64,000 nt of DNA, taken from assembly GCA_015179125.1 (NCBI GenBank), contig WHVA01000348.1:60182-124181 (forward strand), in the 5' to 3' direction. Below, piece after piece: positions 36,202 through 60,151 of the stretch (position 1 is the stretch's first letter; each line of letters begins with the position of its first letter). The position numbers were made by a program, and so were the translations under genes. Origin of the DNA: Gautieria morchelliformis. Lineage: Eukaryota > Basidiomycota > Agaricomycetes > Gomphales > Gomphaceae. The notes beneath the pieces are model-generated. The model was not told the origin of the DNA and made no database searches. It saw only the letters and a list, made by a program, of their open reading frames with translations.

Positions 36202-36491
36202 ATGCCCGTGCCAGCCGGCGATCCGTTTGCCCCTGCCTGGGCCGACCCCTGGACAGTAAAGGCTGCGACCGTCTGACGTCTGCTGAGAGGACGGAATGGC
36301 TCGAGGCCAATCCCGCTCCACCTGCGCAGCCGTCAGCCAAATCTCCCCCGGTTCAACATCAAGCACGCACCAGACGCAGACCCAACGAGACCGCGTCCGC
36401 GTCCACATCCAAGAACAAGCGCAGGAAGATCGTCGATGTGAGTGCGAAGGCCGGAGGGACCATGGGGAACATGGGAGAGCCGAGAGGTGGC
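36202..36491 (+). pseudogene. Disrupted host gene, fragment 1 (N-terminus)
   Basis: ATG 36202 opens a frame beginning MPVPAGDPFAPAWADPW. A one-base frame offset near 36272-36276 (lost base or very short intron) leads into LTSAERTEWLEANPAPPAQP and a basic KNKRRKIVD ending at 36437. A GTGAGT donor at 36438 starts what looks like intron 1. The first gypsy-1 target site (TGGCG, 36487-36491) lies inside that intron. Fragments 2 and 3 complete the gene (49822-50307, 58731-60151). The KRRK cluster suggests a nuclear protein. Nothing more of its job is visible. Confidence 0.65.
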
Positions 36492-36706
36492 GTGTAAAGA
36501 TGTTGATCTTAGGACCTTGTATCACAAGGGCACTGCAGAACTTGACCAATGAGTGGTATTCTGAATGCTACGTAGTGACAGGTAAGAGTAAGATGCGATG
36601 GGGACCGCTGGCCAGTTCCCACGCATAAACTATACAGTGGGTCCCTAAGGGGCCCACTGGGTTTATGTAATAATTAATGTACATGTAGATACACGGGTTA
36701 TTTACA
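36492..36706 (-). repeat. gypsy-1 copy A 3' LTR (215 bp)
   Basis: On the element strand it runs from TGTAAATAAC to ATCTTTACA. It is closely similar to the other three gypsy-1 LTRs and carries the distinguishing GATGCGATGG variant (shared with the copy B 3' LTR). Confidence 0.92.
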
Positions 36707-36742
36707 CCCTCCCCCTCTATAGATAACTATAGGGGTTAATTA

Positions 36743-37715
36743 CTACTCATAGAGGTCGTCCATGAGGGAGTCCTCTAGAGTGGCCGATACGACGACGACG
36801 ACGTTGTACGGGGCCGGAGGAGCACGTGACTCCTCCGGGGGCACCTCCGCGTCATCGGTGGTGATTGGGTGAGGCTGGTCGGCCTCACCACTAGCGGCGG
36901 TCTCCGCTTGGGGGCTGGGGCCTGTGTCCTCGCGGAGCATGGCCTCAACGGCCGGGTCCTCCGTTTGAGGAGGGGGCCGGAAGCGCGCCAGCTCTTGGTC
37001 GAGCTGAGCGTGAGTGAGGGGTCGTACGTCTTCCAGACGGATGAGTTGGACTCCCATCCATCTGGGACGCCGTACGCAGAGTCGGAAGGTGCGCTATGCC
37101 CTTCCGTTGTTGTTGTTGTCGGGGTCGGCGCCGACAATCGGGACGCTAGCCCCGATGTTGCGCGCGCTGGCAGAGGTGCCGTCGCACGAAGTGATGATGG
37201 CCCGGCCACTGGGTCCGTAGCCGGGTCATGTCGCGGCCTTTTTGAGGCAACGTGGGCCAGGGTAACCTGGAGCTGGGCTGCGCTTAGCTGTTGCTCCAGT
37301 TCCTTGATCCTTGCGCGCTCGGTTGCGAGCACGTCGTCGCGGTCCTCGACCGCGCGTTCCAGCTCCTTGACCTCCTTTTTAAGGTCATGGATGTCCCGGA
37401 GGGGCTCCTCCCGCGCGTCACGCGCGATGCCCCGTGGGAGCCATCCCCAGGCTGCATCGACGGTGTCGCCGATGTCCTCGTCTCGCAATTTGACCTTGTG
37501 GGTCCGGTCGCGGCCCTAAGGTGCGCGGCGTAGTCCACGCATGTTGAGCAATCGTCCGGGTGGACGATGGCAAGGGCGTCCTCCCAGCCCATGATCATCC
37601 AGTGCTCCTGGTCTATTGGAGCACGGAGAATGTCTGCGGCCCCTTGTCTCGGGGCCGATGTCTGCGTTGTGGACGTTGACGGGTCAACGTCCATTCCATC
37701 TTTGGGGGGCATCAT
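36743..37715 (-). pseudogene. gypsy-1 accessory ORFs, copy A, frameshifted and rearranged
   Basis: This region, between the chromodomain and the 3' LTR, corresponds to both accessory frames of copy B. The N-terminus has DGMDVDPSTS, GAADILRAPIDQEHW and GWEDALAIVHPDDC. A one-base deletion near 37510 shifts the frame. The coiled coil (KKEVKELERAVEDRDDVL) and KRPRHD continue in another frame. The middle (about 37060-37200, Thr/Pro/Ala-rich) has no counterpart in copy B. The last part (LTHAQLDQELARFRPPPQ to SLMDDLYE) matches copy B again. No known domain. Confidence 0.7.
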
Positions 37716-37835
37716 CTTTGTGGGTAGATGATGGTGGTTGCTTCCAAGAAGCGATGCGCCCTCGGAAAGATCTGAGGTGAAAATTTAACCGCGCCGTGGC
37801 CGGCGTGTCACGTGGTCTACACGTGACAGACACGT

Positions 37836-40328
37836 CTAGCGGCGTCTGGGGAGGTCGCGTGGCTTGCCCACCCCCCGAAGCTCTAGGTAGCTATCTAGGG
37901 CTTCGAGGTCCTTGCAGGACGACATGGGTTCCCATGTCACATCGCCTAGGGTCCAACGGACCTGGAACTCCAGGTCCATCGAGTTTATCCATCGATGTGC
38001 GATAATCTCGTCGACGAGCCACTCCTCGTCGTCATTTGCTCCGAAGTCATAAAATGACTTGGCCTCGCGACGAGGGAACAATTCGTCGTTGTTAGCCTCG
38101 TATCGCCGCACGAGACTTGAATGGAAGACCGGTGAAATGCGACGGCTTTTCAGTTCGTCAGGAAGATCGAGGGTCACCGTCGAGGCGTCATTGTGAGCCT
38201 CGACGACGCGGTATGGTCTGATGTACCACGGGACTAGCTTTCTGGCTCTTCCTTTCGGGAGAGTTAGGTTTTGTGTCGAAAGGTAGACACGGTCGTTGGC
38301 CGCATACCTGTCGCTCGCCATACGTTTCTTATTTGCGTGAAACATTTGCGTCACTCGATGCTCTATGATTGCATCGTGTGCCACCATCAGGTTCCATTTT
38401 GCCTGATGTGCGAATCGGGCCACCCCTTGAACGGGGTGTCCGCGGATATGTGGAGGTCTATCCGCGGCATATAGCCGTGGTTCAGCTCGAAAGGTGCGAA
38501 TCCTGTGGTTGCGCTGATGTTGCTGTTGAGGGCGACCTCAACCATTGGGCATTTCACTGCCCAATCCTTCTGATCGTCTCTGATCACCGCGTGCAATATC
38601 TGGCCGATCGAGCGGTTTGCCCGCTCGGTGGCTCCATCCGTTTGTGGATGGAAGGCAGTTGACATGAGGAGCTTAGTCCCCATGAGTCGCTGGAGTTCAC
38701 GCCAGAAGATCGACGTGAACTTTGAGTCTCTGTCCGAGACGATGGAGTCGGGAACTCCGTGCAGTCAGATGACCTCTTTCAGAAACAGCCAGGCTACTCC
38801 CTTGGCTGACACGCTCGTCGTGGTTGGCACGAGGTGTACGAGCAACGTTAGTCGGTCGATGACTACCATCAGGTAGTCACAGTCGTTGGACTTGGGCAGG
38901 GGCCCCATGAAGTCGATGCCAATCGACTGCCACGGCCTATCCGGAATGGGTAGGCTGTGTAGTAGGCCTTTGGGCCGTTGTGGCCCGGTTTTCGTCATCT
39001 GACACCTCGCGCACGATGTGCAGAACGCTTCTATGTCTGGGTTCATGCCCGGCCACCAATATGCTCTTCGAACGTAGTTCGAAGTCTTCAGATGGCCGTA
39101 GTGGCCGACTATCTGATGTGCCCGATCAATGATAATTTCGATCAGCCTCCTTCCCCCTTGAAGAACAGAGCGGGGGACGGCAATGACGTCTCTCTTGAGC
39201 TGATTCTTAGTCCAGATCAGCCCGTCCCGGATCCCGAATCTCGGGTGCGCGTCAGGGTGCGCCATGATCTTTGTGAACATGGCGTCCCTATGGTATGCGT
39301 CTCGTAGGACCTTAGACAGGTCTACGCCTTGCTCGACGATCCAGCGCAGGGGTGCGCCGTCATTTCCTGCGGCGATGGCTCTGACGTCCGCGACGACGAT
39401 TGCGGGCTCTGGTGAGCCCTCGTTTAATGTGGCGGATTCCGTTACTCTCGCCTCTGTCTTCTCAGCGAGGCGTTTAGAGCGTCTTGTCGCCACTGTTCGC
39501 AGCTCGACATACCGATCGGTGGGCAATAACTCACCGTCCGGGTCTAAACGCGCATCCGCGTTCACGAAGACGTGGTCCGGGTGATTGTCATCACTCGTGT
39601 CGCTCTCGTAGTAGCGCGACAGGCAGTCCGCTACCTTGTTCTCTGCACCGTCAACATGAACGGTGTTGAAATTGAACCGTGAGAGAAACTCCCACCATCT
39701 GACCTGTCGGTCAGATAGGCTCTTTTGGGTCTCGAAGTACTCGAGTCCCTTGTGGTCTGTGACGAGGGTGAACCTTCGCCCCAGCAGTTTGTCCTCCCAT
39801 TTCATGAGAGCCTCGAGCACCGCGATAGTCTCGTGCTCGTGAGTCCGGTAGTGTTGCTGAGCAACGCTGAACTTCTTTGACAAGAAGCCGGCTGGTCGAC
39901 AAGTTTTCCAGTCAGGACCTTGGCCGTAGACCGCACCGATGCCGGCTTTTGATCCGTCGGTGATCACCCAGATCGGCTCTGGGCACCTTGCGTCTACTGG
40001 ACGCAGGATCGGGGCCTTACAGGCCAACGCCTTAATGCTTTGCCAGCATTTGTCGAGCAGTGGCGTCCATTCGAATGGATGGTTAGTACGTGCACAGCCC
40101 GATAGCGGGGTGGTATATGCGCTAACATCCGGCATGTAGTGTGCCAGATACTGTACGAGCCCGAGGAAACGCTGGACGTCGTTGAACGTCCGTGGCCTGT
40201 GCCACTCGCGGATGCGTTGCATCTTATCCTCGTCGGCATGTACCCCTCGGCCATCGATCATATGGCCGAGGCACTCCATTCGGATGGAGTAGAGGTCCAC
40301 CTTTTTCTTGCTCAGAAAGAGGTGGTTC
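37836..40328 (-). pseudogene. gypsy-1 copy A pol, distal part (RT C-terminus, RNase H, integrase, chromodomain)
   Basis: This continues the reverse transcriptase cut by the copia element. RNase H (WVITDGSKAGIGAVYGQ), the integrase HHCC finger (RAHQIVGHYGHL, CTSCARCQ) and the DDE core (IDFMGPLPK, DRDSKF, HPQTDGATERANRS) are recognisable. An in-frame TGA at 38767-38765 interrupts the core, and a lost G near 38420 shifts the frame before the C-terminal chromodomain (EEWLVDEIIAHRW, FQVRWTLGDVTWEP). It cannot make an intact product. Confidence 0.85.
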
Positions 40329-40826
40329 TGTTGGGTGCATTTATGCTCCTGCACCAAAATCAAGCATAATATATTCGATTTGCTGTATGGTGTTTCAATC
40401 TCTTTTCACATTGTTCTTGTACCATGCACCCATTTCTCTGATTATTTTCGAAATTTTCCAGTCACTCCTTACCTCTCCATTTCATCTTGTTATTTCTATT
40501 TTCACAAGCGGCTGCACCCAGCGGAGTCTGAAATGACTTCGACGCGCGAGCTCTTGGGCGCTAAAGGGCCGGGTAGTAGTACATGCACAGTGAGACAGAT
40601 TTCCCCCTCTCTCAGTGACAACTAAATTCACTGAGAGAGGCAAGTAAATTAGTCTAGTGTTCTTTCGATTTATTGACCTAGAAATCCTCTGTAGTGAATT
40701 AATTTCTAGGTAGTGTATAATATACTTACAGTGACAACTAAATTCACTGAGAGAGTGAATTAATTTCTAGTCTATTCTTTTGAGCAAGCAGTCCATACCT
40801 ACTGCCTATAATCCCTGTCCTCTACA
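40329..40826 (+). repeat. copia 5' LTR (498 bp)
   Basis: It begins TGTTGGGTGC and ends CCTCTACA (TGT...ACA termini). Inside are a 12-bp perfect inverted repeat (40607-40639) and a second copy of the CAGTGACAACTAAATTCACT segment near 40730, which can also pair with downstream bases. Confidence 0.95.
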
Positions 40827-40839
40827 GGGTTATGGGCCC
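40827..40839 (+). promoter_or_regulatory. copia primer-binding site (half-tRNA-iMet type)
   Basis: GGGTTATGGGCCC directly follows the 5' LTR. It is the exact complement of the anticodon stem-loop GGGCCCATAACCC of eukaryotic initiator tRNA-Met, the internal cleaved-tRNA priming known for Drosophila copia and Ty5. The polyprotein ATG (40832) lies inside the site. Confidence 0.82.
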
Positions 40840-43800
40840 CGGAGACACTTCTGAGAAGCTATTGGGTGTTGAGAAGCTTGCTACTGATGGAAGTAATTGG
40901 CCATTGCGGCGAGCCACTCTCATCAGCTATTTCGAGTCCAAAAATCTACTCAAGCATGTAGAAGGGAGAGTCACTCGACCTCCTGATCCTCCAGTTATGC
41001 CCCCAGGCCATATTCTTACAGAAGCTGAGGAAACTCAGATGGATAAGGCTGAGGAGAAGCTGGAGAGATACCTTGCTAGAGAAGGACAAGCCAAGACCCA
41101 AATCATCGTCTCAGTGTCAGAGTCATTAGCTCTGATGCTACAGAAGCAGAAGACAGCAAAAGAGACTTGGGATGCACTGGTCAATGAAATGACCAAAAAG
41201 CCCAAGATGGTCCTCACCAGCCTGCAGAGACAACTCCGCAGTATGAGATGTCCTGAGGATGGAGATTTGAGAGATCATTTGGACAAGGCCCAAGACCTAT
41301 ATGCTCGTCTTAATGAGATGGGAGCCAGAGTTTCCGAAGAAGAATTCATGGACATTATCCTTGCGTCACTTCCACCATCCTATGAGGCAGTCATGAACGC
41401 CCTTACCACTTCGCTTGAAGAATGCGGGATGCCATTAGTCCCTGATAATATTATTAGGGTACTAAAGGCTCAGTATGACAGGAAGAAAACACTCCCGCAA
41501 GAAGAGCAGGTGTTTATTGGTTCATCTACTAAGAAGGACCAGAAGGGGCAGAAGGCGCATATATGCACCAACTGCAAAAAGCCTGGACATTCCATCGAAA
41601 ATTGCTGGGCTAAAGGAGGTGGTAAAGAAGGTCAAGGACCAGGTCAGAAGAAAAAAGCCAAAGGCAAGAAGAAGAAGAAGGGTAAAGCAAAAGCGAATGT
41701 TGCCGAAGAAGAGTCCTCTTCTGAGGAAAGTGGTGATGGGCATCTTGCCTTCACCAATTTCGACGAGTGCTCGAATTTCAATCTGAGAACATCCTCAGGA
41801 GTTATAGTCATACTCGACACCGGAACGACATCGCATATGACTCCTCATAAAAATTTATTGAGGAACTACTGTCAATTCTCACAGCCGAGGACTATCCGAG
41901 CAGCCAACAAAGGCACCTTTGATGCCTTCGGTTCAGGACTGCTCGTATTATCCAATAAGGTTGGAGATAAAACAGTAGAAGTCACTTTGCAACATACATA
42001 CTATGCACCAAAAATTGCTGCTACCCTCGTCTCGATCGGTCGGTGCGATGATGCTGGCTACGACATTCGACTCGGTGGCCAGAAATGCACGATATCTAAC
42101 GCTGTTGGAAAGGTATTGATGCAAGCACCGAAGGTCAATGGTTTATATCGACTAGACCTCCAGTCATCAAGTGCTCAAGCCCATATGTGTTTGTCTGCCA
42201 TGGAAATTCATCAAAAAATGGGGCACATCTCACAGAAGTCCCTACAACATCTGTTAAATCATGGCATGATATTGGGCATTGAACTGAGCTCCACAGGCGA
42301 TAGAATTGTCTGTGATGCGTGTATTCAGGCCAAGATTGCACGCAAACCTCTTCCTCGAGAACCCAGAGACCGAACATCAAAATTCGGTGACAGAATTTAT
42401 TCTGATGTCTGGGGACCTGCAAGACACCTCACGATCGATAAAAATTCATATTATGTCTCTTTTATCGATGACTACTCAAGAGAATCGGTGATCTATCTCA
42501 TGGCGAACAAATCAGAAGCATTTTCAAAGTACAAGCTCTACGAGGCTTTAATGCTTCGACAGAGAAATGTGCGCATCAAGGCACTTGTTTCTGATCGAGG
42601 GGGCGAGTATACGAGCTCTGAATTCGAACAGTATCTAGCCAAACAAGGCACGAAGCATCAGTTGACGGTACACGACACACCAGAGTCTAATGGTGTTGCC
42701 GAACGTCTGAACCGAACTCTCACTGAGAGAACTTGTGCCATGCTGCTGGACTCAGGCCTTCCTAAGATATTATGGGGCTATGCAATACAGCATGCCAATT
42801 ATCTTAGGAACAGGACGCATACAAGAGCTCTACCGGATAAAACGCCCTACGAGATGATCCACCATGAGAAACCGAATCTCAAAGACATTCACGCGTGGGG
42901 AACTGAAGTCTATGTTAAGGTCACTCAGGGAGATAAATTGGAAGCTCGTGCCAAGAGAGCTCGGTGGATAGGAATTTCTGCGCAGAGCCATGGTCATTAT
43001 ATTTATTGGCCTGACTTGCACAAAGTTTCTGTCGAGCGGAATGTTGTGTTTGATTCAGAGATGAAGAAGGGAAAGGTCCCAATCATTTCTATTGAGGAAT
43101 CCAAGCTACCTACGTCTAGAGAGGAGAAGAAGGCCATTCCGGCATCAGTGCCTGTGCCCGGTCGCTTAGTCAGCGAAGAGGCAAAGATCGAAGAAATTGA
43201 TGAAAGTGCACCAGAGGAATATCTTGAAGAGCTGCAACCTATTCAGGGAGTTGATGACAGACCTAGAGAAGCTGAACCGATAAGGAGAAGCGAAAGGATC
43301 CGTCAACAACAAGTGCAGCCGGCCCCATCAGGTCCCGTAACAAGATCTCAGACTCAGAGACAAGCTGGCGCACATATGACTACGCTAGCTTACGAGGATG
43401 TTGAGGACCATAAAGAAGTTTTATTCGACCAAGAATTATCCTCCGAGATTGATGGCATCAATAGCTATGAGTGTGCCATCAGTGCGTTTCCAACCGACGG
43501 TCAAAACAGTGACAAGGCGCCGGATTTGAGTCAAATTGAACCTAGCAATGCAGACGAAGCTCTGAATAATCCTATGTGGAAGAAATCAATGGACAAAGAG
43601 TACGAGGCCCTAATCGACAAAGGAGTGTGGGAACGAGCTAAACCACCTCCTGGAGCCAATATTGTCGGTAATAAATGGGTCTACCTTTGGAAGCGTAATC
43701 CAGAAGGGAAACCAATAATGCCTAAATCGAGAATGGTCGCCCAAGGCTTCACACAGAAGTTTGGAGTTGACTATGATGAGACATACTCACCTGTTGCTCG

Positions 43801-45076
43801 GTTATCCTCCCTACGGATCATATGCGCCATTGCTGCTAGGAATGACTGGCCTATCCATCAAATGGACGTGGACTATGCATACCTCAATGCTACACTGCCT
43901 GAACCTATTTACATGAAGCAACCGTATGGATATGAGTCTGGAGACAAAGACGAAATGCTACTTTTGAAGAAAGCACTCTACGGCCTCAAACAATCTGGAA
44001 GGGAATGGTACAAACATCTAAGTGGTGAATTCCACAAATTAGGATTCACTACGTCAGCCACAGATGGGGCTGTATTTTATAGACGTGGCGGAAAGGGGCA
44101 TGTGATCATTGCAACAGCTGTGGATGATCTCACCATCACAGCTGAGAATCAGTCAGTCCTGGACGAAGTCAAACGAGATCTTTCTCAGGTCTTCAGTATG
44201 AAAGATCTAGGCGAGATTCATTGGCTATTGAATCTTAAAATCGAAAGAGACTGGCAGAAGAAAACCATTGCAATTTCACAACCTGCATACATCGAGAAGA
44301 TCATCAAGAAATTCAATCTCGAAGATGCAAAGACTTATGCTACGCCCCTTGATCCAGCCGTTAAATTATCTAAAGACCAATGTCCTTCTACAGAGAGAGG
44401 CAAGAAAGCCATGTCGAAGTTTCCATACAGGCAAGCCATAGGATCACTGATGTGGGCAGCTGTAGCCACTCGACCTGACATTGCATTTGCGGTGTCATTG
44501 CTCTCGCAATTCCTCGAAAATCCAGGTGGCACACATTGGAATGCAGTCAAACGTGTCTTCAAATATTTGAAAGGCATGAAGCATTACAAGCTCACACTTG
44601 GAAGAAATCAAGACGGCTTGATGGGGTATTCAGATGCGGATTGGGGTTCACAGAGCCATAGGCGTTCGTATTCGGCATACTTATTTCAGATTGATGGAGG
44701 CACTGTTTCATGGAGTTGCCAGAAACAGTCGATAGTAGCCCTCTCATCAACTGAAGCCGAATTCGTCGCCCTGACCCATGCGGGCAAAGAGGCTCTCTGG
44801 ATGCGCCATTTTATTTCTGAAATATTCCAACCACTGAACAGACCCATCCAAGTTTATTCAGACAATCAATCAGCCATTGCCATCACGTATGGCACTCAAC
44901 AACACACGAGAACCAAACATTTCGACATCAGATTATATTTCCTTCGAGATATAATCAAAAATCAACAAGCCAAGCTCGTTTATTTGCCAACCGAACAAAT
45001 GTTGGCAGATATTCTCACTAAAGGACTTCCTAGTCCTAGAGTGAAGATCCTCAACGAGCAAATCGGAATATATTAA
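40832..45076 (+). CDS. copia Gag-Pol polyprotein (1414 aa)
   Basis: A single uninterrupted frame carries all domains in Ty1/copia order. Gag (UBN2-type) fills residues 1-220. A CCHC knuckle follows (CTNCKKPGHSIENC, about 246-259). The aspartic protease has ILDTGTTSHMTP (about 325). Integrase shows the HHCC finger (HQKMGHISQKSLQHLL, CDACIQAK) and core (DRIYSDVWGP, FIDDYSRES, DRGGEYTS, PESNGVAERLN). Reverse transcriptase has VYLWKRNPEGK, MVAQGFTQKFGVDYDETYSP, YGLKQSGREWY and AVDDLTI, where most copia elements read YVDD. RNase H shows DADWGSQSH, LSSTEAEFVAL and DNQSAI. No stop or frameshift is seen, so it is potentially autonomous. The ATG used overlaps the primer site. Confidence 0.93.
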   Translation: MGPGDTSEKLLGVEKLATDGSNWPLRRATLISYFESKNLLKHVEGRVTRPPDPPVMPPGHILTEAEETQMDKAEEKLERYLAREGQAKTQIIVSVSESLALMLQKQKTAKETWDALVNEMTKKPKMVLTSLQRQLRSMRCPEDGDLRDHLDKAQDLYARLNEMGARVSEEEFMDIILASLPPSYEAVMNALTTSLEECGMPLVPDNIIRVLKAQYDRKKTLPQEEQVFIGSSTKKDQKGQKAHICTNCKKPGHSIENCWAKGGGKEGQGPGQKKKAKGKKKKKGKAKANVAEEESSSEESGDGHLAFTNFDECSNFNLRTSSGVIVILDTGTTSHMTPHKNLLRNYCQFSQPRTIRAANKGTFDAFGSGLLVLSNKVGDKTVEVTLQHTYYAPKIAATLVSIGRCDDAGYDIRLGGQKCTISNAVGKVLMQAPKVNGLYRLDLQSSSAQAHMCLSAMEIHQKMGHISQKSLQHLLNHGMILGIELSSTGDRIVCDACIQAKIARKPLPREPRDRTSKFGDRIYSDVWGPARHLTIDKNSYYVSFIDDYSRESVIYLMANKSEAFSKYKLYEALMLRQRNVRIKALVSDRGGEYTSSEFEQYLAKQGTKHQLTVHDTPESNGVAERLNRTLTERTCAMLLDSGLPKILWGYAIQHANYLRNRTHTRALPDKTPYEMIHHEKPNLKDIHAWGTEVYVKVTQGDKLEARAKRARWIGISAQSHGHYIYWPDLHKVSVERNVVFDSEMKKGKVPIISIEESKLPTSREEKKAIPASVPVPGRLVSEEAKIEEIDESAPEEYLEELQPIQGVDDRPREAEPIRRSERIRQQQVQPAPSGPVTRSQTQRQAGAHMTTLAYEDVEDHKEVLFDQELSSEIDGINSYECAISAFPTDGQNSDKAPDLSQIEPSNADEALNNPMWKKSMDKEYEALIDKGVWERAKPPPGANIVGNKWVYLWKRNPEGKPIMPKSRMVAQGFTQKFGVDYDETYSPVARLSSLRIICAIAARNDWPIHQMDVDYAYLNATLPEPIYMKQPYGYESGDKDEMLLLKKALYGLKQSGREWYKHLSGEFHKLGFTTSATDGAVFYRRGGKGHVIIATAVDDLTITAENQSVLDEVKRDLSQVFSMKDLGEIHWLLNLKIERDWQKKTIAISQPAYIEKIIKKFNLEDAKTYATPLDPAVKLSKDQCPSTERGKKAMSKFPYRQAIGSLMWAAVATRPDIAFAVSLLSQFLENPGGTHWNAVKRVFKYLKGMKHYKLTLGRNQDGLMGYSDADWGSQSHRRSYSAYLFQIDGGTVSWSCQKQSIVALSSTEAEFVALTHAGKEALWMRHFISEIFQPLNRPIQVYSDNQSAIAITYGTQQHTRTKHFDIRLYFLRDIIKNQQAKLVYLPTEQMLADILTKGLPSPRVKILNEQIGIY

Positions 45077-45089
45077 GCTTGAGGGGGCG

Positions 45090-45586
45090 TGTTGGGTGCA
45101 TTTATGCTCCTGCACCAAAATCAAGCATAATATATTCGATTTGCTGTATGGTGTTTCAATCTCTTTTCACATTGTTCTTGTACCATGCACCCATTTCTCT
45201 GATTATTTTCGAAATTTCCAGTCACTCCTTACCTCTCCATTTCATCTTGTTATTTCTATTTTCACAAGCGGCTGCACCCAGCGGAGTCTGAAATGACTTC
45301 GACGCGCGAGCTCTTGGGTGCTAAAGGGCCGGGTAGTAGTACATGCACAGTGAGACAGATTTCCCCCTCTCTCAGTGACAACTAAATTCACTGAGAGAGG
45401 CAAGTAAATTAGTCTAGTGTTCTTTCGATTTATTGACCTAGAAATCCTCTGTAGTGAATTAATTTTTAGGTAGTGTATAATATACTTACAGTGACAACTA
45501 AATTCACTGAGAGAGTGAATTAATTTCTAGTCTATTCTTTTGAGCAAGCAGTCCATACCTACTGCCTATAATCCCTGTCCTCTACA
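45090..45586 (+). repeat. copia 3' LTR (497 bp)
   Basis: It matches the 5' LTR except for one T missing in a T run, a C/T change in CTTGGGYGCTAAAG and a C/T change in AATTTYTAGG. Confidence 0.95.
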
Positions 45587-46442
45587 GGTTCTTCCTCAGT
45601 CTGTCAAAGACGATGTAGAGGTGCTCTTCATGCTCTTGTATTGAGAGCGAGAATATGAAGATGTCATCCATGTATACATGGACGAAGCGACCTATGCAGT
45701 CGCGGAAAATGGCTGTCATCAGCCGTTGGAATGTTGATGGGGCGTTACAGTCCCCCATCTGTATCACCTGGCTCCTGAAGGTGCCGAGGATCGTGGCAAA
45801 GGCTGTCTTTGCTACGTGATCCGGATGGATCCGGATCTGCTCGTATGCTTCTGACATATCGAGTTTAGTTCGATATCGGCAGCGAGCCATGTCGCTGCAT
45901 ATGATATCCTGATCCGGGAAGGGCGTGACGTCCTTCACCGTGTTTTCGTTCTGCTGGCGCAGATCGAAGACGGTTCTCAACGTACCGTTCTTCTTCGGCA
46001 CACACAGCATGGGCACTGCCTGCTGCGCTACTGCCGGAATCCACCACTTTGCAGTGGTGTATCGTTCTATCTTTGCCGACAGTTCCTCTCGGAAGTGTTT
46101 GGGGCATTTCGGTAGTCGATACCGCATGTGCTTGTTGGGATCGATGAGGTTGATCTCATGGTTGATCTCCCGCAGTGGCGGGAGTTCTAATGGAATTCCA
46201 CTGACTAGGTCAGTGATTCTTTCCATCCATTCCTCGCGGAGGCGAGGAAGGTCATCATCCGTGAGGATGATGGTAGTGGTTGGCTTAGGTGCCATTAAGC
46301 GCTGTTGGCGTCTATTAGGTCCTGCGGCGCACGGGCCCGCTTTCCACTTTCTTATCGCTTTCACTGTTAGGTGAGAGCGTCTCTCCCTACGACCGTAGGG
46401 TGAGTTCGAGGACGAGTCGTCTCGCGACTCGTCCTCCTGGCT
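45587..46442 (-). pseudogene. gypsy-1 copy A pol, proximal part (RT N-terminus)
   Basis: This is the front of reverse transcriptase, with MLCVPKKNGTLRTVFDLRQQN, TKLDMSEAYEQIRIHPD and the active site VYMDDIFIFS. It stops at RLRKN, where the copia element entered; the next residues (HLFLSKKK) resume at 40328. It is in the same frame as gag and protease, separated from protease by a TGA. It has no ATG near its 5' end. Every residue of the 260-codon open part appears identical to copy B. Confidence 0.88.
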
Positions 46443-47285: not shown

Positions 47286-47318
47286 TGTTTTCGTCGGTGG
47301 GGCAGGTCGCGGGGACGA

Positions 47319-49469: not shown

Positions 49470-49607
49470 GCTCGCAGCCGACAGTAGAGGGTCTACTGGA
49501 GGGTCTCAACGATGTTTAGTCGTCGACGCAGCGATCTTTTTCAAGATTGCTTCGAATCCACTATCGGTTGGTCGTGTGGTGATCAACCGCAGGATAGTTC
49601 AAAAAGG

Positions 49608-49821
49608 TGTAAAGATGTCAATCTTAGGACCTTGTATCACAAGGGCACTGCAGAACTTGACCAATGAGTGGTATTCTGAATGCTACGTAGTGACAGGTAA
49701 GAGTAAGATGTGATGGGGACCGCTGGCCGGTTCCCACGCATAAACTATACAGTGGGTCCCTAAGGGGCCCACTGGGATTATGTAATAACTAATGTACATG
49801 TAGATACACGGGTTATTTACA
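49608..49821 (-). repeat. gypsy-1 copy A 5' LTR (214 bp)
   Basis: It has TGTAAATAAC...CTTTACA termini on the element strand. Its GATGTGATGG variant is shared with the copy B 5' LTR but not with either 3' LTR. The base after it on the plus strand starts TCTTG, the reverse complement of the CAAGA that follows copy B. Confidence 0.92.
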
Positions 49822-50307: not shown

Positions 50308-50521
50308 TGTAAATAACCCATGTATCTACATGTACATTAGTTATTACATAATCCCAGTGGGCCCCTTAGGGACCCACTGTATAGTTTATGCGTGGGAACC
50401 GGCCAGCGGTCCCCATCACATCTTACTCTTACCTGTCACTACGTAGCATTCAGAATACCACTCATTGGTCAAGTTCTGCAGTGCCCTTGTGATACAAGGT
50501 CCTAAGATTGACATCTTTACA
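50308..50521 (+). repeat. gypsy-1 copy B 5' LTR (214 bp)
   Basis: It begins TGTAAATAACCCATG and ends ATCTTTACA. It is preceded by CGCCA (50303-50307), the reverse complement of the TGGCG flanking copy A at 36487-36491. Confidence 0.92.
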
Positions 50522-50659
50522 CCTTTTTGAACTATCCTGCGGTTGATCACCACACGACCAACCGATAGTGGATTCGAAGCAATCTTGAAAAAGATCGCTG
50601 CGTCGACGACTAAACATCGTTGAGACCCTCCAGTAGACCCTCTACTGTCGGCTGCGAGC

Positions 50660-52809
50660 ATGATGATTCCACGCAGTCGAAGACGGACACAAGCGACGAG
50701 CTCGAGGTCCACACCCCAGGCGCAGCCCAGCAACACGACGGCTGACGCTATCCTGGACCAAGAGACCAGGACGATAGAAGACGGAGAGATCGTTGATCTC
50801 ACCGCCCTCGTCCCCTCAGTAGAGAACGAGGAAAACCCCGACCACGTCTCGTCGAGCGTGGCCGAAGAAGAGACGACGCCGAGTGATGAGCCGGCACTGC
50901 CCCCCCATCTCCCTCTGCCCGAGGACACAGGAAAGGGCAGAGAAGTCTCGCCGTCGTCAGACGGTAGAGCAACAATGTCGAGATGGGCACAAAGCCACGA
51001 CTCAAACCGACGCTCTCGAAGTAGAGCGACGACGATCGTCCCTGAAGGAGGACGACGGCAAAAGAGACGAGCCCCAGACGATGGTCAGGACTCGGAATAC
51101 TCAAGCTCTAGTCGCAAGAGCTCGAGGGCTCACGCCATCGACCACGAGATGGCAGAGGCCCTGAACAAACAGGTGCAGGCTGCGCTGCACCGAAGCACGC
51201 TGACGCGCCACAAGCACGATCAGCTGGCATCGCAGCTCGACAACGCCACCGCCGCCCTAATGGCAATCGGCAAGGAACTCCACCAGGCGGAGGAGATCAG
51301 GCTGCAAGATGCAGCCACGCTGGAGGACGTCCAGAAAGCACTCCGCCCACGCGGGGAACGCGACGCAACTCGTCCGAGCTCACGACAGTCCGCAGCTAAC
51401 GAACGCAGTCGCGATGCGTGCCGAAATGAGCGAGACAAGCAGCGAATGCCGCCGCCAGCCATCCCGGTCGAACAGGACGTAAGGTTCGGGAACGAACCTC
51501 AGGAGCAACCGGCTGCCCCAACGGACAGCCGTAAAACGATCCAACAGATTGTTAGGGATCAGGTCGCCTCAGAGCCTGACTCTGAAACGACGACCGAGAG
51601 CTTAGAGCTCGAAGTCGCACACTGGCAGCGTAAGGAAGCCGCAGCTGCGCGCCGCCACACACGGGCACTCGAGCTACTAGCCAAGAACGCCGAAGAGACG
51701 GTGGCCCACAGCCACACCGCTCAGCTGCCCGACGAGCAGCTCACGCAAGCCGTACAGGACGCACGGCAAGCGCGCGCTGCCTACAACAGCAGGCTACAGA
51801 TCCGCAACGCGGGCTGACCGGGGACACCAGGCACAAAACGCCCCCGGAACCGAGAGCACAAAATGCTCCCGATCCCGAGCCTGATCCGGGCCCGGGGCCC
51901 GTCAGGGCATATAACAGCTTACCCCGCGCGGCGTCACAACCGCGCAAGCGATCCATGGCCCCAACGGAAGGCCAGGGAATCCCTGACCAGGCCGACGTCG
52001 TACCAATGGAGCCGTACGACGGGATCACGTGGATGATCCACGTGGCGTTGGCAGACGCCGCGGACACAGACCCGGAGAAGTCTGTGCTAGCGAAGGCCGG
52101 TGTAAAATTGGCCCACCCCGAGCCATATGCAGGGGGATCGGACCTCGAAGAGTTTGAAATCTTCGTGGCAGCCATCCTACGATGGCTGAAAATGAATTGC
52201 CTCCTAGGACCAACCAGCATCGACATGCAGGTCGGCTATGTGGGCACTCGCCTCACCGGCGAAGCCCAAGAATGGTTCCTTCGAAACGTTGAACGCTTCG
52301 ATCGCCAGGTCCGCATCTGGACGCTGGAATCAGTGATGCAAGGCCTTCAAAAGAGGTTCCTGCACACACTGACATACCATCACGCCTCGAATAAGTTCGA
52401 CGCGGTCATGCAAGGCATGAAAACCGTTCAGGAGATGCTGAACAAGCTCACGAAATACGCGGCACGTATGATACAGCCGCCAGACGAGTACACGTTCCGG
52501 AGACGGTTCGTATCTGCGCTACGCGAAACGCTGCGCAACGAGGTCCTCAAAAAGGGCTATAATGCCGAGAGCAGCTCAATAGAGCAACTCTTCGAGACGG
52601 CCCGGATGATCGAGGAGACATCCCGATATAACATGGGGATGCGCCGCGCAGAAAGCGCAGCAGCAACGGCTAGTGCCGCCCGGCTCACAGGGAGCAAGCC
52701 GTTGACACAAACAGGCCTGACCAGGCCCAGCCTGTTCGCAAGAAGCGGAACAGGTCAACGGATACCGCCCTCACGCCCGCCTGAAGCTAAACAGCCTCAA
52801 GCGTCATGA
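50660..52809 (+). pseudogene. gypsy-1 copy B Gag, one-base frameshift
   Basis: It is the same Gag as in copy A, but a GGGG run has become GGG near 51811, so the first frame stops at 51817 after 385 codons. The capsid-like part continues in the next frame to the TGA at 52807-52809. Otherwise the protein differs from copy A at only one position that I noticed (QVRI versus QVRM). Confidence 0.88.
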
Positions 52810-53685
52810 TCGTCCCCGCGACCTGCCCCACCGACGAAAACATTGGGCCGGCCCAATGACAGGCCCAGCGGCAGCCAAAACAACACCGCATGCTTTGAAT
52901 GCGGCCAACCTGGCCACAAGAAGGCAGAATGCCCCCGGCTTAGGTCCGGTATAAGGACAGCGGCCGTGAGGCACGACGGTGAAGCCGAGAATCCGGAGAC
53001 AGATCCCATTCAAAGCTCTCTCCCTCAAATTGATGAAGAGGGGGAGGGTGATCCCCAAACCAACGACACTCCAGACAACGGAGACACGCCCGCTGAAGAG
53101 TGGGACCCTGAGCCGTCCCAATACTATGAATGGGACGAAGAGGTGGAGGACACCGCTTACAGGTCCAGCGCAGTGTATCACCACCGAAGCAAACACAGAA
53201 CGCGGCCAACGTGTCCGCGTAGTGAGAACCGTACCCTATCGGGGTACTGGGAAATAAACGGCGTAAAAGCCCACTGCCTGCTAGATAGCGGCAGCGAAGG
53301 GGTACTGCTGTCCCCCGAATTCACGCGAGCTACAGGGATGAAGACATTCTCCCTGGAGCAACCAATCACGCTGCAGCTAGCCTGCGTAGGCAGCCATTCC
53401 ATGATCAACTATGGAATGAACACGACCATCAAGTTTGGTCGCGGGACATACGACGAATACTTCGACGTAGCAAATGTCGAATATTACGACGCGATCTTAG
53501 GGACACCGTTCATAAGGAGATTCGGCATAACCCTGGACTTCTCGAGCCCAGGGACGATCCGCAAGGGAAACGAGGTGATCCCCACGGGCAAGGTCTCATT
53601 CGACGACGACGAATCGAAGAACAAGGACAAGGGGCCACGGGTGAGCAGAATCACCCAAGCGCCGAGGCCGAAGCTGGCTCATTGA
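52810..53685 (+). CDS. gypsy-1 copy B CCHC zinc knuckle and aspartic protease
   Basis: This lies between the TGA codons at 52807 and 53683, in the same frame as the capsid part of gag. It contains CFECGQPGHKKAEC and LLDSGSEGVLL. No ATG is available upstream of the knuckle, which favours an original gag-pro-pol fusion. Confidence 0.8.
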   Translation, partial: SSPRPAPPTKTLGRPNDRPSGSQNNTACFECGQPGHKKAECPRLRSGIRTAAVRHDGEAENPETDPIQSSLPQIDEEGEGDPQTNDTPDNGDTPAEEWDPEPSQYYEWDEEVEDTAYRSSAVYHHRSKHRTRPTCPRSENRTLSGYWEINGVKAHCLLDSGSEGVLLSPEFTRATGMKTFSLEQPITLQLACVGSHSMINYGMNTTIKFGRGTYDEYFDVANVEYYDAILGTPFIRRFGITLDFSSPGTIRKGNEVIPTGKVSFDDDESKNKDKGPRVSRITQAPRPKLAH

Positions 53686-56600
53686 AGCCAGGAGGACGAG
53701 TCGCGAGACGACTCGTCCTCGAACTCACCCTACGGTCGTAGGGAGAGACGCTCTCACCTAACAGTGAAAGCGATAAGAAAGTGGAAAGCGGGCCCGTGCG
53801 CCGCAGGACCTAATAGACGCCAACAGCGCTTAATGGCACCTAAGCCAACCACTACCATCATCCTCACGGATGATGACCTTCCTCGCCTCCGCGAGGAATG
53901 GATGGAAAGAATCACTGACCTAGTCAGTGGAATTCCATTAGAACTCCCGCCACTGCGGGAGATCAACCATGAGATCAACCTCATCGATCCCAACAAGCAC
54001 ATGCGGTATCGACTACCGAAATGCCCCAAACACTTCCGAGAGGAACTGTCGGCAAAGATAGAACGATACACCACTGCAAAGTGGTGGATTCCGGCAGTAG
54101 CGCAGCAGGCAGTGCCCATGCTGTGTGTGCCGAAGAAGAACGGTACGTTGAGAACCGTCTTCGATCTGCGCCAGCAGAACGAAAACACGGTGAAGGACGT
54201 CACGCCCTTCCCGGATCAGGATATCATATGCAGCGACATGGCTCGCTGCCGATATCGAACTAAACTCGATATGTCAGAAGCATACGAGCAGATCCGGATC
54301 CATCCGGATCACGTAGCAAAGACAGCCTTTGCCACGATCCTCGGCACCTTCAGGAGCCAGGTGATACAGATGGGGGACTGTAACGCCCCATCAACATTCC
54401 AACGGCTGATGACAGCCATTTTCCGCGACTGCATAGGTCGCTTCGTCCATGTATACATGGATGACATCTTCATATTCTCGCTCTCAATACAAGAGCATGA
54501 AGAGCACCTCTACATCGTCTTTGACAGACTGAGGAAGAACCACCTCTTTCTGAGCAAGAAAAAGGTGGACCTCTACTCCATCCGAATGGAGTGCCTCGGC
54601 CATATGATCGATGGCCGAGGGGTACATGCCGACGAGGATAAGATGCAACGCATCCGCGAGTGGCACAGGCCACGGACGTTCAACGACGTCCAGCGTTTCC
54701 TCGGGCTCGTACAGTATCTGGCACACTACATGCCGGATGTTAGCGCATATACCACCCCGCTATCGGGCTGTGCACGTAATAACCATCCATTCGAATGGAC
54801 GCCACTGCTCGACAAATGCTGGCAAAGCATTAAGGCGTTGGCCTGTAAGGCCCCGATCCTGCGTCCAGTAGACGCAAGGTGCCCAGAGCCGATCTGGGTG
54901 ATCACCGACGGATCAAAAGCCGGCATCGGTGCGGTCTACGGCCAAGGTCCTGACTGGAAAACTTGTCGACCAGCCGGCTTCTTGTCAAAGAAGTTCAGCG
55001 TTGCTCAGCAACACTACCGGACTCACGAGCACGAGACTATCGCAGTGCTCGAGGCTCTCATGAAATGGGAGGACAAACTGCTGGGGCGAAGGTTCACCCT
55101 CGTCACAGACCACAAGGGACTCGAGTACTTCGAGACCCAAAAGAGCCTATCTGACCGACAGGTCAGATGGTGGGAGTTTCTCTCACGGTTCAATTTCAAC
55201 ACCGTTCATGTTGACGGTGCAGAGAACAAGGTAGCGGACTGCCTGTCGCGCTACTATGAGAGCGACACGAGTGATGACAATCACCCGGACCACGTCTTCG
55301 TGAACGCGGATGCGCGTTTAGACCCGGACGGTGAGTTATTGCCCACCGACCGGTATGTCGAGCTGCGAACAGCGGCGACAAGACGCTCTAAACACCTCGC
55401 TGAGAAGACAGAGGCGAGAGTAACGGAATCCGCCACATTAAACGAGGGCTCACCAGAGCCCGCAATCGTCGCCGCGTCCAGCGACGACGACGATGACGTC
55501 AGAGCCATCGCCGCAGGGAATGACGGTGCACCCCTGCGCTGGATCATCGAGCAAGGCGTAGACCTGTCTAAGGTCCTACGAGACGCGTACCATAGGGACG
55601 CCATGTTCACAAAGATCATGGCGCACCCGGACGCGCACCCGAGATTCGGGATCCGGGACGGGCTGATCTGGACTAAGAATCAGCTCAAGAGAGATGTCAT
55701 TGCCGTCCCCCGCTCTGTTCTTCAAGGGGGAAGGAGGCTGATCGAAATTATCATTGATCGGGCACATCAGATAGTCGGCCACTACGGCCATCTGAAGACT
55801 TCGAACTACGTTCGAAGAGCATATTGGTGGCCGGGCATGAACCCAGACATAGAAGCGTTCTGCACATCGTGCGCGAGGTGTCAGATGACGAAAACCGGGC
55901 CACAACGGCCCAAAGGCCTACTACACAGCCTACCCATTCCGGATAGGCCGTGGCAGTCGATTGGCATCGACTTCATGGGGCCCCTGCCCAAGTCCAACGA
56001 CTGTGACTACCTGATGGTAGTCATCGACCGACTAACGTTGCTCGTACACCTCGTGCCAACCACGACGAGCGTGTCAGCCAAGGGAGTAGCCTGGCTGTTT
56101 CTGAAAGAGGTCATCTGACTGCACGGAGTTCCCGACTCCATCGTCTCGGACAGAGACTCAAAGTTCACGTCGATCTTCTGGCGTGAACTCCAGCGACTCA
56201 TGGGGACTAAGCTCCTCATGTCAACTGCCTTCCATCCACAAACGGATGGAGCCACCGAGCGGGCAAACCGCTCGATCGGCCAGATATTGCACGCGGTGAT
56301 CAGAGACGATCAGAAGGATTGGGCAGTGAAATGCCCAATGGTTGAGGTCGCCCTCAACAGCAACATCAGCGCAACCACAGGATTCGCACCTTTCGAGCTG
56401 AACCACGGCTACATGCCGCGGATAGACCTCCACATATCCGTGGACACCCCGTTCAAGGGGGTGGCCCGATTCGCACATCAGGCAAAATGGAACCTGATGG
56501 CGGCACACGATGCAATCATAGAGCATCGAGTGACGCAAATGTTTCACGCAAATAAGAAACGTATGGCGAGCGACAGGTATGCGGCCAACGACCGCGTCTA

Positions 56601-57048
56601 CCTTTCGACACAAAACCTAACTCTCCCGAAAGGAAGAGCCAGAAAGCTAGTCCCGCGGTACATCGGACCGTACCGCGTCGTCGAGGCTCACAACGACGCC
56701 TCGACGGTGACCCTTGATCTTCCTGACAAACTGAAAAGCCGTCGCATTTCACCGGTCTTCCATTCCAGCCTCGTACAGCGATACAAGGCTAACAACGATG
56801 AATTGTTCCCTCGTCGTGAGGCCAAGTCATTTTATGACTTCGGAGCAAATGACGACGAGGAGTGGCTCGTCGACGAGATTATCGCACATCGATGGATAAA
56901 CTCGACGGACCTGGAATTCCAGGTCCGTTGGACCCTAGGCGACATGACATGGGAACCTATGTCATCCTGCAAGGACCTTGAAGCCCTGGATAGCTACCTA
57001 GAGCTTTGGGGGGTGGGCAAGCCACGCGACCTCCCCAGACGCCGCTAG
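53686..57048 (+). pseudogene. gypsy-1 copy B pol: RT, RNase H, integrase, chromodomain
   Basis: The frame is continuous apart from a TGA at 56116-56118. Reverse transcriptase has VYMDD (about 54450-54464). RNase H has ITDGSKAGIGAV and TDHKGLEYF. The integrase finger is RAHQIVGHYGHL plus CTSCARCQ. The core has IDFMGPLPK (first Asp), DRDSKF (second) and the HPQTDGATERANR block (with the Glu). A chromodomain ends the protein (EEWLVDEIIAHRW, FQVRWTLGDMTWEP), the mark of chromoviruses that target heterochromatin. The TGA stands where relatives have Arg (KEVI-x-LHGVPDS), consistent with CGA to TGA. No ATG exists before residue 24 of the open frame. Confidence 0.87.
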
Positions 57049-57174
57049 ACGTGTCCGTCACGTGCAGGCCACGTGACGCGCCGGCCACGGCGCGGTTAAA
57101 TTTTCACCTCGGATCTTTCCGAGGGCACATCGCTTCTTGGAAGCAACCACCACCATCATCTACCCACAAAGATA

Positions 57175-57759
57175 ATGCCCCCCAAAGATGGGATGGATGT
57201 TGACCCGTCAACGTCCACAACGCGAACAACGGCCCCGAGACAAGGGGCCGCAGACATTCTCCGTGCTCCGATAGACCAGGAGCACTGGACGATCGTGGGA
57301 TGGGAGGACGCCCTCGCCATCGTCCACCCGGACGATTGCGCAACGTGCGCAGACTACGCCGTGCACCTTAGGGCTGCGACCGGCACCCGCAAGGTCAAGT
57401 TGCAGGATGAAGACATCGGCGACGCCGTCGATGCAGCTTGGGGATGGCTCCCAAGGGGCATCGCGCGTGATGCGCAAGAAGAGCCCCTCCGGGACGTCCA
57501 CGACTTCAAGAAAGAGGTCAAGGAGCTAGAATGCGCGGTTGCGGACCGCGACGACGCGCTCGTAACCGAGCGCGCCAGGATCAAGGAACTGGAGCAGCAG
57601 CTGAGTGCAGCCCAGCTCCAGGTTACCCTGGTCCACGCTGCCTCAAAAAGGCCGCGACATGACCACAGCTCGCAATCCCAAAAGGGATTGTCTCGTGATA
57701 GCGGGCGGTACCCCACACGACATCGCGGCCATTCTAAAGGGTTGGATACACAACCCTGA
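57175..57759 (+). CDS. gypsy-1 accessory ORF 1 (copy B), unknown function
   Basis: A 194-codon frame begins 127 bp after pol with a good ATG. It has an N-terminal part with GAADILRAPIDQEHW and two Cys in HPDDCATCADYA, then a coiled coil (KKEVKELECAVADRDDAL, RIKELEQQLSAAQLQ) ending in a basic KRPRHD. Its N-terminal part is conserved in copy A. No domain is recognised. Standard gypsy elements have nothing here except env-like genes, and no signal peptide or membrane segment is present. Confidence 0.6.
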   Translation: MPPKDGMDVDPSTSTTRTTAPRQGAADILRAPIDQEHWTIVGWEDALAIVHPDDCATCADYAVHLRAATGTRKVKLQDEDIGDAVDAAWGWLPRGIARDAQEEPLRDVHDFKKEVKELECAVADRDDALVTERARIKELEQQLSAAQLQVTLVHAASKRPRHDHSSQSQKGLSRDSGRYPTRHRGHSKGLDTQP

Positions 57760-58480
57760 AGGAATCCCCTCCGCCATCCGTGACAACGCGGATGGCACCT
57801 TCAACCTAGACGACATGGACGTCTGGATGTGGTTGAAGGCCCTTGCACCCCGGGTCAAAGGGGTCGCATCACTGCTCAGGGCGAGGCTACTCGACCTCTT
57901 CGGCTCGATGGACCAATGGTCGAGCCTCGTTGACGCCAGGGAATTGCTGACGCCTCAGAGCACCACCCTGCGGCTCTCAATCACGGGCCCATTCCCTGTG
58001 GAGGGCCGGGCTGGCCCCGACATCCCACTCGCGGATATCGCGAGATGGTTGGCCCGCTACGCGGGAGTCACTCGTGAGCAAGCGGCGTGCATTAAACATT
58101 ACGTTCAGCGCAGCATCACCGGCGCGGCATTCAGCGCCGCCGCCCGTGAGGGCCAACAAAATGTCATTGAGACCAGCCACGTGAGGGCCGCAGTGCCGCG
58201 ACCCCTCACTCACGCTCAGCTCGACCAAGAGCTGGCGCGCTTCCGGCCCCCTCCTCAAACGGAGGACCCGGCTGTTGAGGCCATGCTCCGCAAGGACGCG
58301 GGCCCCAGCGCCCAAGCGGAGACCGCCGCTAATGGCGAGGCCGACCAGCCTCACCCGATCGCCACCGATGACGCGGAGGTGCCCCCGGAGGAGTCACGTG
58401 CCCCTCCGGCCCCGTACGACGACGACGTCGTCGTATCGGCCACTCTAGAGGACTCCCTCATGGACGACCTCTATGAGTAG
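57659..58480 (+). CDS. gypsy-1 accessory ORF 2 (copy B), unknown function
   Basis: A 273-aa frame overlaps the end of accessory ORF 1 by 101 bp in another register. From ATG 57659 it contains GTPHDIAAILKGWIHNPEG, a Trp-containing WMWLKALAPRVKG, a helical IPLADIARWLARYAGVTREQ segment and an acidic tail ending SLMDDLYE. The tail and LTHAQLDQELARF are shared with copy A, while the middle 500 bp are not. It may be translated separately or by frameshift from ORF 1. No known domain. Confidence 0.55.
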   Translation: MTTARNPKRDCLVIAGGTPHDIAAILKGWIHNPEGIPSAIRDNADGTFNLDDMDVWMWLKALAPRVKGVASLLRARLLDLFGSMDQWSSLVDARELLTPQSTTLRLSITGPFPVEGRAGPDIPLADIARWLARYAGVTREQAACIKHYVQRSITGAAFSAAAREGQQNVIETSHVRAAVPRPLTHAQLDQELARFRPPPQTEDPAVEAMLRKDAGPSAQAETAANGEADQPHPIATDDAEVPPEESRAPPAPYDDDVVVSATLEDSLMDDLYE

Positions 58481-58516
58481 GTGTTAACCCCTATAGTTGT
58501 CTATAGAGGGGGAGGG

Positions 58517-58730
58517 TGTAAATAACCCGTGTATCTACATGTACATTAGTTATTACATAATCCCAGTGGGCCCCTTAGGGACCCACTGTATAGTTTATGC
58601 GTGGGAACCGGCTAGCGGTCCCCATCGCATCTTACTCTTACCTGTCACTACGTAGCATTCAGAATACCACTCATTGGTCAAGTTCTGCAGTGCCCTTGTG
58701 ATACAAGGTCCTAAGATTGACATCTTTACA
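58517..58730 (+). repeat. gypsy-1 copy B 3' LTR (214 bp)
   Basis: It has TGTAAATAAC...CTTTACA termini and is followed by CAAGA (58731-58735). The purine tract AGAGGGGGAGGG abuts its 5' side. It carries the GATGCGATGG variant. Confidence 0.92.
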
Positions 58731-60151
58731 CAAGAGGACCGGCACGAAATGCAGATGACGACATGTGGGATACTGAGTGTCAGCCAGGAGATTGGGAAGT
58801 TATGAAAGAGAGAGGGCTCACCGGGCAATATAAAACTTTCAAGAAGGAAATCCTGGTGAGCTTCAGCATGCCTGAATGCCAGTGGTTGATGTCCCTATCA
58901 GCACGTACTCCATCGATGCATGATAACATCGATTGGAATGGAAAGCAGAAAATCACACTTACCTGATCCCCGTGCCCATGGAGAGCCTCCACGTTGTGAT
59001 CCCGAATCGAGAGAACCATACATGGACGTGGATTTCACAAAGGATATCACCGCGGCTGTAAATGTGCGTCTGTTGCAGAGGGCACGTGATGCGGCACGTG
59101 ACGAGATCGAGGATGTAAGTACAACCCCCGATTATGGTAACACGCTCACCTGTTAGGCGTCAGTCCGATACATGTCCTTCAGAGATGAAGGATGCAGGTT
59201 ACAGGCCTGATAGCAAATGCCTGTATGAGCTGGCCAAAACCACTTGGCGCATGCTCAAGGACCGGTACCTGAAGCAAACGGACCCACGGAAGAAGAAGAT
59301 GGGACAGAAGAACCAACACACCGCGAGGTGGGTGAGTAGGCGCAACACGGTAAGTTCCCGAACTTTTCACGACTTATTCACATGTTATGTTCAGAAGGCA
59401 AATTGGAGGCGATCTGCCATCGTTACGTTCCAAGATATGTATGGCTTTGATCCCAGCCCATTGCTCCATCAAGATTATCAATCGGACAAGGCTTCAGGGC
59501 CAGAAGATGACCTAATAACCGAAGAAAATGCGACAGACATGATGGCGTTGTGGAAGCGGAACTTGATGGAGATCGACGGACTTGAGGGAAGTGTGGATAA
59601 GTTTAATTTCTTTGAGGTCATCCATCCCACATGGCGCTCACATTGCGTAAGTGCTTACCTGCTCGCATGCCGGGTTCTGTGCTCATGCCGTGCAGGCAAC
59701 CACAATACTCCATAAACTGTCAGATATCAGGGATGCAGCACTGACAACAAAGGATAAGGCAGCCATCTGTCGGATTCGCGTGTACACGTCCCGTTACAGC
59801 AACGTGCTGCCGCCCACTGCACCTTACGATGCAATGATCAGCGATGAATGGTGGGAGAAATTCAGCAAGGATTGGGACATCAAAGACTGGAAGACATACG
59901 GGAACCCGGAGACGCTAGAACCATTTCTTGAGCTTCCACTGGTCCTGGTGCATCGCAAAGGCAAGGGCAATGAGGAGCATGAGGTAGGGGACGAAAGCGA
60001 TGCAGGAGAGGTGGAGATGATAAAAACCAAGGCGAGGGAGGGGGACAAAGGCAAGGGTGATGAGGAGCGTGAGGTAGAGGACGAAAGCGATGCAGGAGAG
60101 GTGGTGATGATGAAAACAAAGGTGAGGGAGGGGCTTGAGCAATGGATGTGA
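58731..60151 (+). pseudogene. Disrupted host gene, fragment 3 (C-terminal part)
   Basis: This picks up the frame left at 49822 (fragment 2). The first exon runs to 58855 (NADDDMWDTECQPGDWE, LTGQYKTFKKEIL) and ends at a GTGAGC donor. Later exons include DVDFTKDITAAVNVRLL to 59115, then KTTWRMLKDRYLKQTDP to 59349, then KANWRRSAIVTFQDMYGFD to 59646, then ILHKLSDIRDAALTT onward to the stop at 60149-60151. Introns at about 59116-59157, 59350-59395 and 59647-59695 fit GT-AG. The C-terminus has two copies of a 30-residue charged repeat. The family looks like an uncharacterised basidiomycete nuclear protein, and I cannot name it. Confidence 0.65.
59957..60136 (+). repeat. 90-bp coding tandem repeat, two copies
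   Basis: Two imperfect copies with period 90 nt (30 codons) each begin KGKG and contain DESDAGEV. They form the C-terminus of the disrupted host gene. Confidence 0.85.

Follow-up and report, generated by a model that had tools for sequence, protein, structure and literature searches.

Exchanged target-site duplications have been used to interpret the Galileo inversions of Drosophila buzzatii (Delprat et al. 2009; PMC2775673, in the passages cited here), and the cited part of PMC3355041 also states that such an exchange is expected of inversions of this kind. Here we apply the same logic to a locus of the truffle-like fungus Gautieria morchelliformis (Gomphales), in which two homologous Ty3/gypsy long terminal repeat (LTR) retrotransposons, copy A and copy B, lie in opposite orientation, one at each end of a short inverted spacer within a CACTA-like DNA transposon. 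The window analyzed is a stretch of 64,000 nucleotides, part of contig C391 of the 122-Mb G. morchelliformis assembly (1,113 contigs), which was also the genome searched. As with Galileo (PMC2775673, same passages), two oppositely oriented copies with exchanged target-site duplications flank the inverted segment. Galileo, however, is a DNA transposon, for which those passages describe a natural chromosomal inversion, clearly chimeric copies, and a crossover mapped to 141 bp, whereas the Gautieria locus has LTR retrotransposons, a segment of only 476 bp, and a crossover that cannot be placed within near-identical inner arms. The locus also resembles the palindromes of the willow W chromosome, whose inverted arms are kept alike by arm-to-arm conversion; the cited part of that study (PMC7023750) concerns sex-chromosome palindromes with genes, whereas in Gautieria the arms are the retrotransposons themselves. 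Inversion by ectopic recombination between transposable elements is a known process, and the locus is a very clean, unusually well documented example of it, which leaves the view of the mechanism unchanged. Its value lies in being an unusually complete natural record, with four crossed ends and five unoccupied targets in the same genome.

Crossed target-site duplications and empty sites

The features that define the rearrangement are the following.

36488..36492, plus strand: target-site duplication 1, left copy, TGGCG (single copy in paralogues)
36493..49821, minus strand: Ty3/gypsy copy A, interrupted by a copia element (from LTRs and domains)
36493..36706, minus strand: 3' LTR of copy A, 214 bp (LTR comparison)
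49608..49821, minus strand: 5' LTR of copy A, adjoining the spacer (LTR comparison)
49822..49826, plus strand: target-site duplication 2, TCTTG (reverse complement of 58731-58735)
49827..50302, minus strand: inverted spacer of 476 bp (ancestrally, the transposon open reading frame reads along this strand)
50303..50307, plus strand: target-site duplication 1, CGCCA (reverse complement of 36488-36492)
50308..58730, plus strand: Ty3/gypsy copy B (from LTRs and domains)
50308..50521, plus strand: 5' LTR of copy B, adjoining the spacer (LTR comparison)
58517..58730, plus strand: 3' LTR of copy B (LTR comparison)
58731..58735, plus strand: target-site duplication 2, right copy, CAAGA (single copy in paralogues)
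58731..59833, plus strand: right flank, collinear with the empty-site paralogue C415 (98% over 1,103 bp; genome comparison)

Neither element has matching ends: copy A lies between TGGCG and TCTTG, and copy B between CGCCA and CAAGA. The four flanks allow six pairings, among which there are no direct matches and exactly two reverse-complement matches, both of them the crossed pairs. This arrangement had been proposed in an initial annotation made from the window alone, and it holds, with TCTTG, CGCCA, and CAAGA exactly where they had been placed; TGGCG had been set one base too low (36487-36491). The proposed spacer length of 486 bp is likewise correct when the 5-mers are included, and is 476 bp when they are left out. 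The annotation had also judged the crossed matches very unlikely to be accidental. Two ordinary elements with decayed duplications would have to match crosswise in both 5-mers, which simple arithmetic puts at about 4^-10, near one in a million. Since all five empty sites described below have both 5-mer sites and the opposite spacer orientation, we regard coincidence as already refuted, with a negligible probability.

Searching the genome with the spacer gave six places (all six first-look candidates were scored), one of which is the window itself. At each of the other five (C176, C193, C349, C415, and C892), both window flanks adjoin, and the left flank is followed by the reverse-complemented spacer and then by the right flank; each 5-mer site occurs once, and there is no insertion. 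Both 5-mer sites are exact in four of these paralogues, and C892 has TGGTG in place of TGGCG. When the window flanks and spacer are rejoined and multiply aligned with all five copies, neither junction has a gap; on the right, collinearity with the four paralogues other than C415 extends to 58934-58939. Because the five empty sites show the uninverted and uninserted order, the window contains two separate insertion points and, as assembled, an inverted spacer. Indeed, the assembled spacer, together with one half of each duplication, is turned round exactly at the two retrotransposon ends.

We therefore suggest the following course of events. A degenerate CACTA-like transposon would have received two members of one Ty3/gypsy family, in opposite orientation and at points 481 bp from each other, and each of the two insertions would have produced a 5-bp duplication of its own, as the empty sites show. 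Homologous recombination between the inverted copies would then have made their inner arms alike by gene conversion, as the identity of the arms suggests, and a crossover somewhere in these arms would have inverted the 476-bp spacer and the adjoining duplication copies. Each element would thereby have come to carry one duplication half from each original site. That two insertions were followed by gene conversion and crossover between the inverted copies, flipping the spacer, is in our judgment very probable. The assembly shows the inverted state; its origin in the organism, and not in the assembler, is something we infer.

Inner arms and outer halves of the two copies

Each of the four LTRs is 214 bp long and reads TGTAAATAACCC...TTTACA. 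The predicted domains of copy B follow the gypsy-type order RVT_1, RT_RNaseH, Integrase_H2C2; Ty3_capsid and Retrotrans_gag gave matches only below the curated cut-offs, and the integrase core (rve) was not among the domain matches of its frames. Both copies have LTRs with TG..CA ends and a polypurine tract. They thus resemble fungal Ty3/gypsy elements in their LTR ends, in the purine-rich tract before the 3' LTR, in the order of reverse transcriptase-RNase H and integrase zinc-binding domain, and in their 5-bp duplications, and nothing sets them apart from ordinary members of that group besides the rearrangement and, in A, a nested copia element. The latter has one long stop-to-stop frame of 1430 aa, and its LTRs are 99.4% identical. 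Its position and that of the inner arm of A are as follows.

40324..40328, no strand: GGTTC, duplication to the left of the nested copia (sequence)
40329..45586, plus strand: Ty1/copia element nested in copy A, with LTRs at 40329-40826 and 45090-45586 (from LTRs and domains)
45587..45591, no strand: GGTTC, duplication to the right of the nested copia (sequence)
45589..49821, minus strand: inner arm of copy A, probably homogenized (3 differences from B in 4,233 bp)

Across 4,233 bp of inner arm, A and B are distinguished by only two substitutions and a single 1-base indel. The 3' halves differ by 56 substitutions in 2,777 aligned bp over 54536-57335, a count that excludes everything beyond 57335 (Fisher P 1.3e-20 versus the inner arms). 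Counted in 200-bp bins, substitutions between A and B remain at 0-0.5% over the first 800 bp past the point of copia insertion and then become patchy, at 0-3.3%, to about 56535. Farther out, A/B divergence is 3.5-15.7% to 57735, followed by an unalignable block and then by values of 6.4, 5.5, and 3.1% to the end of the outer LTR. The arms thus look converted near the spacer and diverged away from it. As a separate observation, the region 57336-58200 of B differs strongly from the 3' part of A; it includes insertions and a block that aligns poorly, as though the family had more than one kind of 3' module in circulation.

Comparisons within the family, in each of which the best 40 candidates were scored, point in the same direction. 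Over 52500-54530 (1,292 candidates), A and B, both among the best 40, are 100% identical, and none of the 38 other scored copies exceeds 98% on any long piece or is unbroken across 53170. A and B have a common 84-bp deletion that is absent from all seven other copies fetched; it removes 28 codons from the part between the zinc knuckle and protease regions, at about 53170 in B and at the corresponding point in A. The 3' half of B is 97% identical to C815, C626, and C379, and A is not among the best 40 of 1,363 candidates; the 3' half of A is 98% identical to C1003 versus 94% to B (best 40 of 1,888). Outer and inner halves therefore have different nearest relatives, with most of each outer half closer to copies elsewhere in the genome than to its partner, whereas along the inner arms A and B hardly differ. 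The LTRs show a similar pattern. The two inner LTRs differ at a single site, and among the four LTRs they alone have the variant at position 111, whereas the outer LTR of A differs from its inner LTR at 6 of 214 sites, with five variants found in none of the pair's other three LTRs.

These patterns indicate exchange between A and B, with a crossover breakpoint that cannot be placed because the inner arms do not have enough differences. Judging from the sequences, we take A and B for copies that probably did not diverge recently and that became alike in their inner arms only once both had inserted. The original copy of B might have been the donor in this conversion, given that five variants in the outer LTR of A are absent from the other three; in a marker comparison at 55290-56570 bearing on this direction, no alignment was obtained with the C379 piece for the first part. 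Elements of this kind cannot be dated by the divergence of their LTRs, because the two LTRs of A seem no longer to have a common history.

The two LTRs of a newly inserted element are normally identical, and the differences just described, 6 of 214 sites within A versus one between the inner LTRs of A and B, argue against a simpler account in which A and B shared their 5' halves before insertion. So does the inner-arm haplotype with the 84-bp deletion, which no other scored or fetched copy was seen to have. Such sharing, through related sources or template switching during reverse transcription, would make later conversion unnecessary, and it is not without precedent: mosaic elements of fission yeast have been ascribed to recombination between elements, either integrated or during reverse transcription (PMC10085805, in the part cited). 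For the Gautieria pair we consider it improbable.

The near-identity of the arms also bears on whether the inversion could be an artefact, with a spacer that is truly in the ancestral orientation, matching duplications around each element, and an assembler that flipped the spacer between the arms. Arms that differ at only three places in 4,233 bp beside the spacer would favor such an error, and a flip by the assembler would yield the same crossed 5-mers as a real inversion. The genomes of the data set were sequenced with Illumina and/or PacBio and assembled with ALLPATHS-LG plus PBJelly, Falcon, or Celera, according to the cited part of PMC7550596, in which the choice for this species does not appear. 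However, the arms retain three differences, and beyond them the divergence rises in patches, neither of which looks like a wholesale collapse; the window has no N bases. Moreover, reads of about 5 kb, which is short for PacBio, would suffice to reach from the spacer to the copia element found only in A, 4.2 kb away. We thus assign an assembly error a low probability.

An extension of the preferred reading, with a probability that overlaps that of two insertions followed by conversion and crossover, is a living flip switch, in which the inverted arms recombine repeatedly by both processes and the orientation of the spacer alternates in the mycelium, the dikaryon, nuclei, strains, or the population. 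Near-identical arms of at least 4.2 kb around a short spacer would be a good substrate, and their homogenization would imply repeated or long exchange; the assembly, however, has the locus in a single orientation. Continued flipping is on balance unlikely, though less so than either sharing before insertion or misassembly. If it does occur, the increase in divergence between A and B with distance from the spacer would record the reach of the exchanges.

Several points weigh against a history of two insertions, conversion, and crossover. Crossover alone predicts inner arms that are chimeric yet diverged, so their near-identity needs an added conversion step. The initial annotation, which had invoked two insertions and a plain crossover, is thus upheld in its core, with the five empty sites strongly in its favor, but not in the sufficiency of its mechanism. 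The empty sites belong to paralogous copies of a sequence that is itself mobile, not to the same locus in another strain; the alignment that the annotation had proposed, of the reconstructed locus to an empty site of a related strain, therefore has its counterpart in a gap-free fit to all five paralogues, not to an orthologue. An allelic empty site was also sought and not found: the assembly contains the segment 34000-35645 in full only once, and thus offers no second allele for comparison. In the comparison for the 3' half of A, B ranks 39th partly on account of a shorter alignment, and by rounded identity only 7 of the 38 others exceed 94%. In the same set (best 40 of 1,888), the 318 bp of A beside the outer LTR are closest to B (95%, versus 93% for C329), which weighs against a different origin of the whole outer halves, and A/B divergence drops again, to 3-6%, near the outer LTRs. 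Finally, the outer LTR of A has no match above 98% other than itself among the best 40 of 1,768 candidates, and its variants may be old subfamily marks or later mutations.

The interrupted DNA transposon and its reading frame

The initial annotation had taken the flipped segment for a piece of a host gene. A single-copy host gene can be rejected, given that flanks and spacer recur at five other places, three of which have terminal repeats and 3-bp duplications; the target appears instead to be a dispersed transposon with terminal inverted repeats and an orphan frame. Two features of it are found in the window.

35651..35653, no strand: ACT, presumed 3-bp target-site duplication at the left end of the DNA transposon (matching pairs in C193, C349, and C415)
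35654..35669, plus strand: left terminal inverted repeat, CACTGCGTTTAAGCCC, of the interrupted DNA transposon (sole window match at three mismatches or fewer)

Neither the right terminal repeat nor the right-hand partner of the ACT duplication was found in the window. The genome has 45 instances of CACTGCGTTTAAGCCC with no more than one mismatch, 26 of them exact, and the backwards control gave none. The left end is common to the target copies, and right ends were identified in C193, C349, and C415, not in C176 or C892. The former three span CACTGCGTTTAAGCCC to GGGCTTAAACGCAGTG and are bounded by the 3-bp duplications AAT, ATT, and ACT, respectively, so that both ends are matched in three of the five paralogues. 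Family copies measure about 1.6 to 3.3 kb between paired repeats. The target copies appear to differ through internal deletions and have decayed to different degrees.

With termini CACTG...CAGTG and 3-bp duplications, the target resembles CACTA/EnSpm (CMC) transposons; fungal EnSpm elements have CAC..GTG ends and 3-bp duplications (PMC12730594, in the part cited). Unlike these, it has yielded no transposase in its two annotated proteins, and the frame it carries is an orphan. On sequence grounds, the target is a degenerate CACTA-like DNA transposon family carrying this orphan reading frame. No EnSpm-type transposase was found in the two proteins (P0001 and P0002); an autonomous partner was not sought, and the copies may be non-autonomous. 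The frame is annotated as a hypothetical protein in two copies (C892 and C415), and the only relatives in the single protein search made (1,632 candidates) were two hypothetical proteins from the same species. No family exceeded its cut-off in a Pfam scan of the two proteins. A Zeta_toxin match (E 0.062, 13.2 bits versus a cut-off of 22.3) lies far below the cut-off and was taken as chance.

Turning the spacer back was also said to restore an 87-nt intron and an open, phase-correct exon chain, and the intron can be rejected. From the GTGAGT donor to CACCCAG the stretch measures 88 nt, and the annotated proteins of two paralogues read through it as coding; the transposon frame runs straight across junction 1, so that an intron is not needed. 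This rejection rests on the annotated models and the paralogue frame, and with an 88-nt intron one other frame also stays open. Substitutions in the stretch are few (3, 4, and 3 by codon position). In the read-through frame, C349 and C193 have an in-frame stop inside it, which fits decayed copies and argues against a strictly conserved frame. In the window copy, a one-base deletion near 36263 shifts the frame relative to all five paralogues.

Two of the target copies lie inside a larger unit of 3.6 kb (C176:168812-172449 and C892:20619-24271), 93% shared and with bounds unlike those of the transposon. An Rfam scan of the window at gathering scores gave no match. Near the right edge of the window, at 61549-63962, there is a further retroelement with gag and aspartyl protease domains, which is cut by the contig end and whose LTR, at a guess, may start near 60616.

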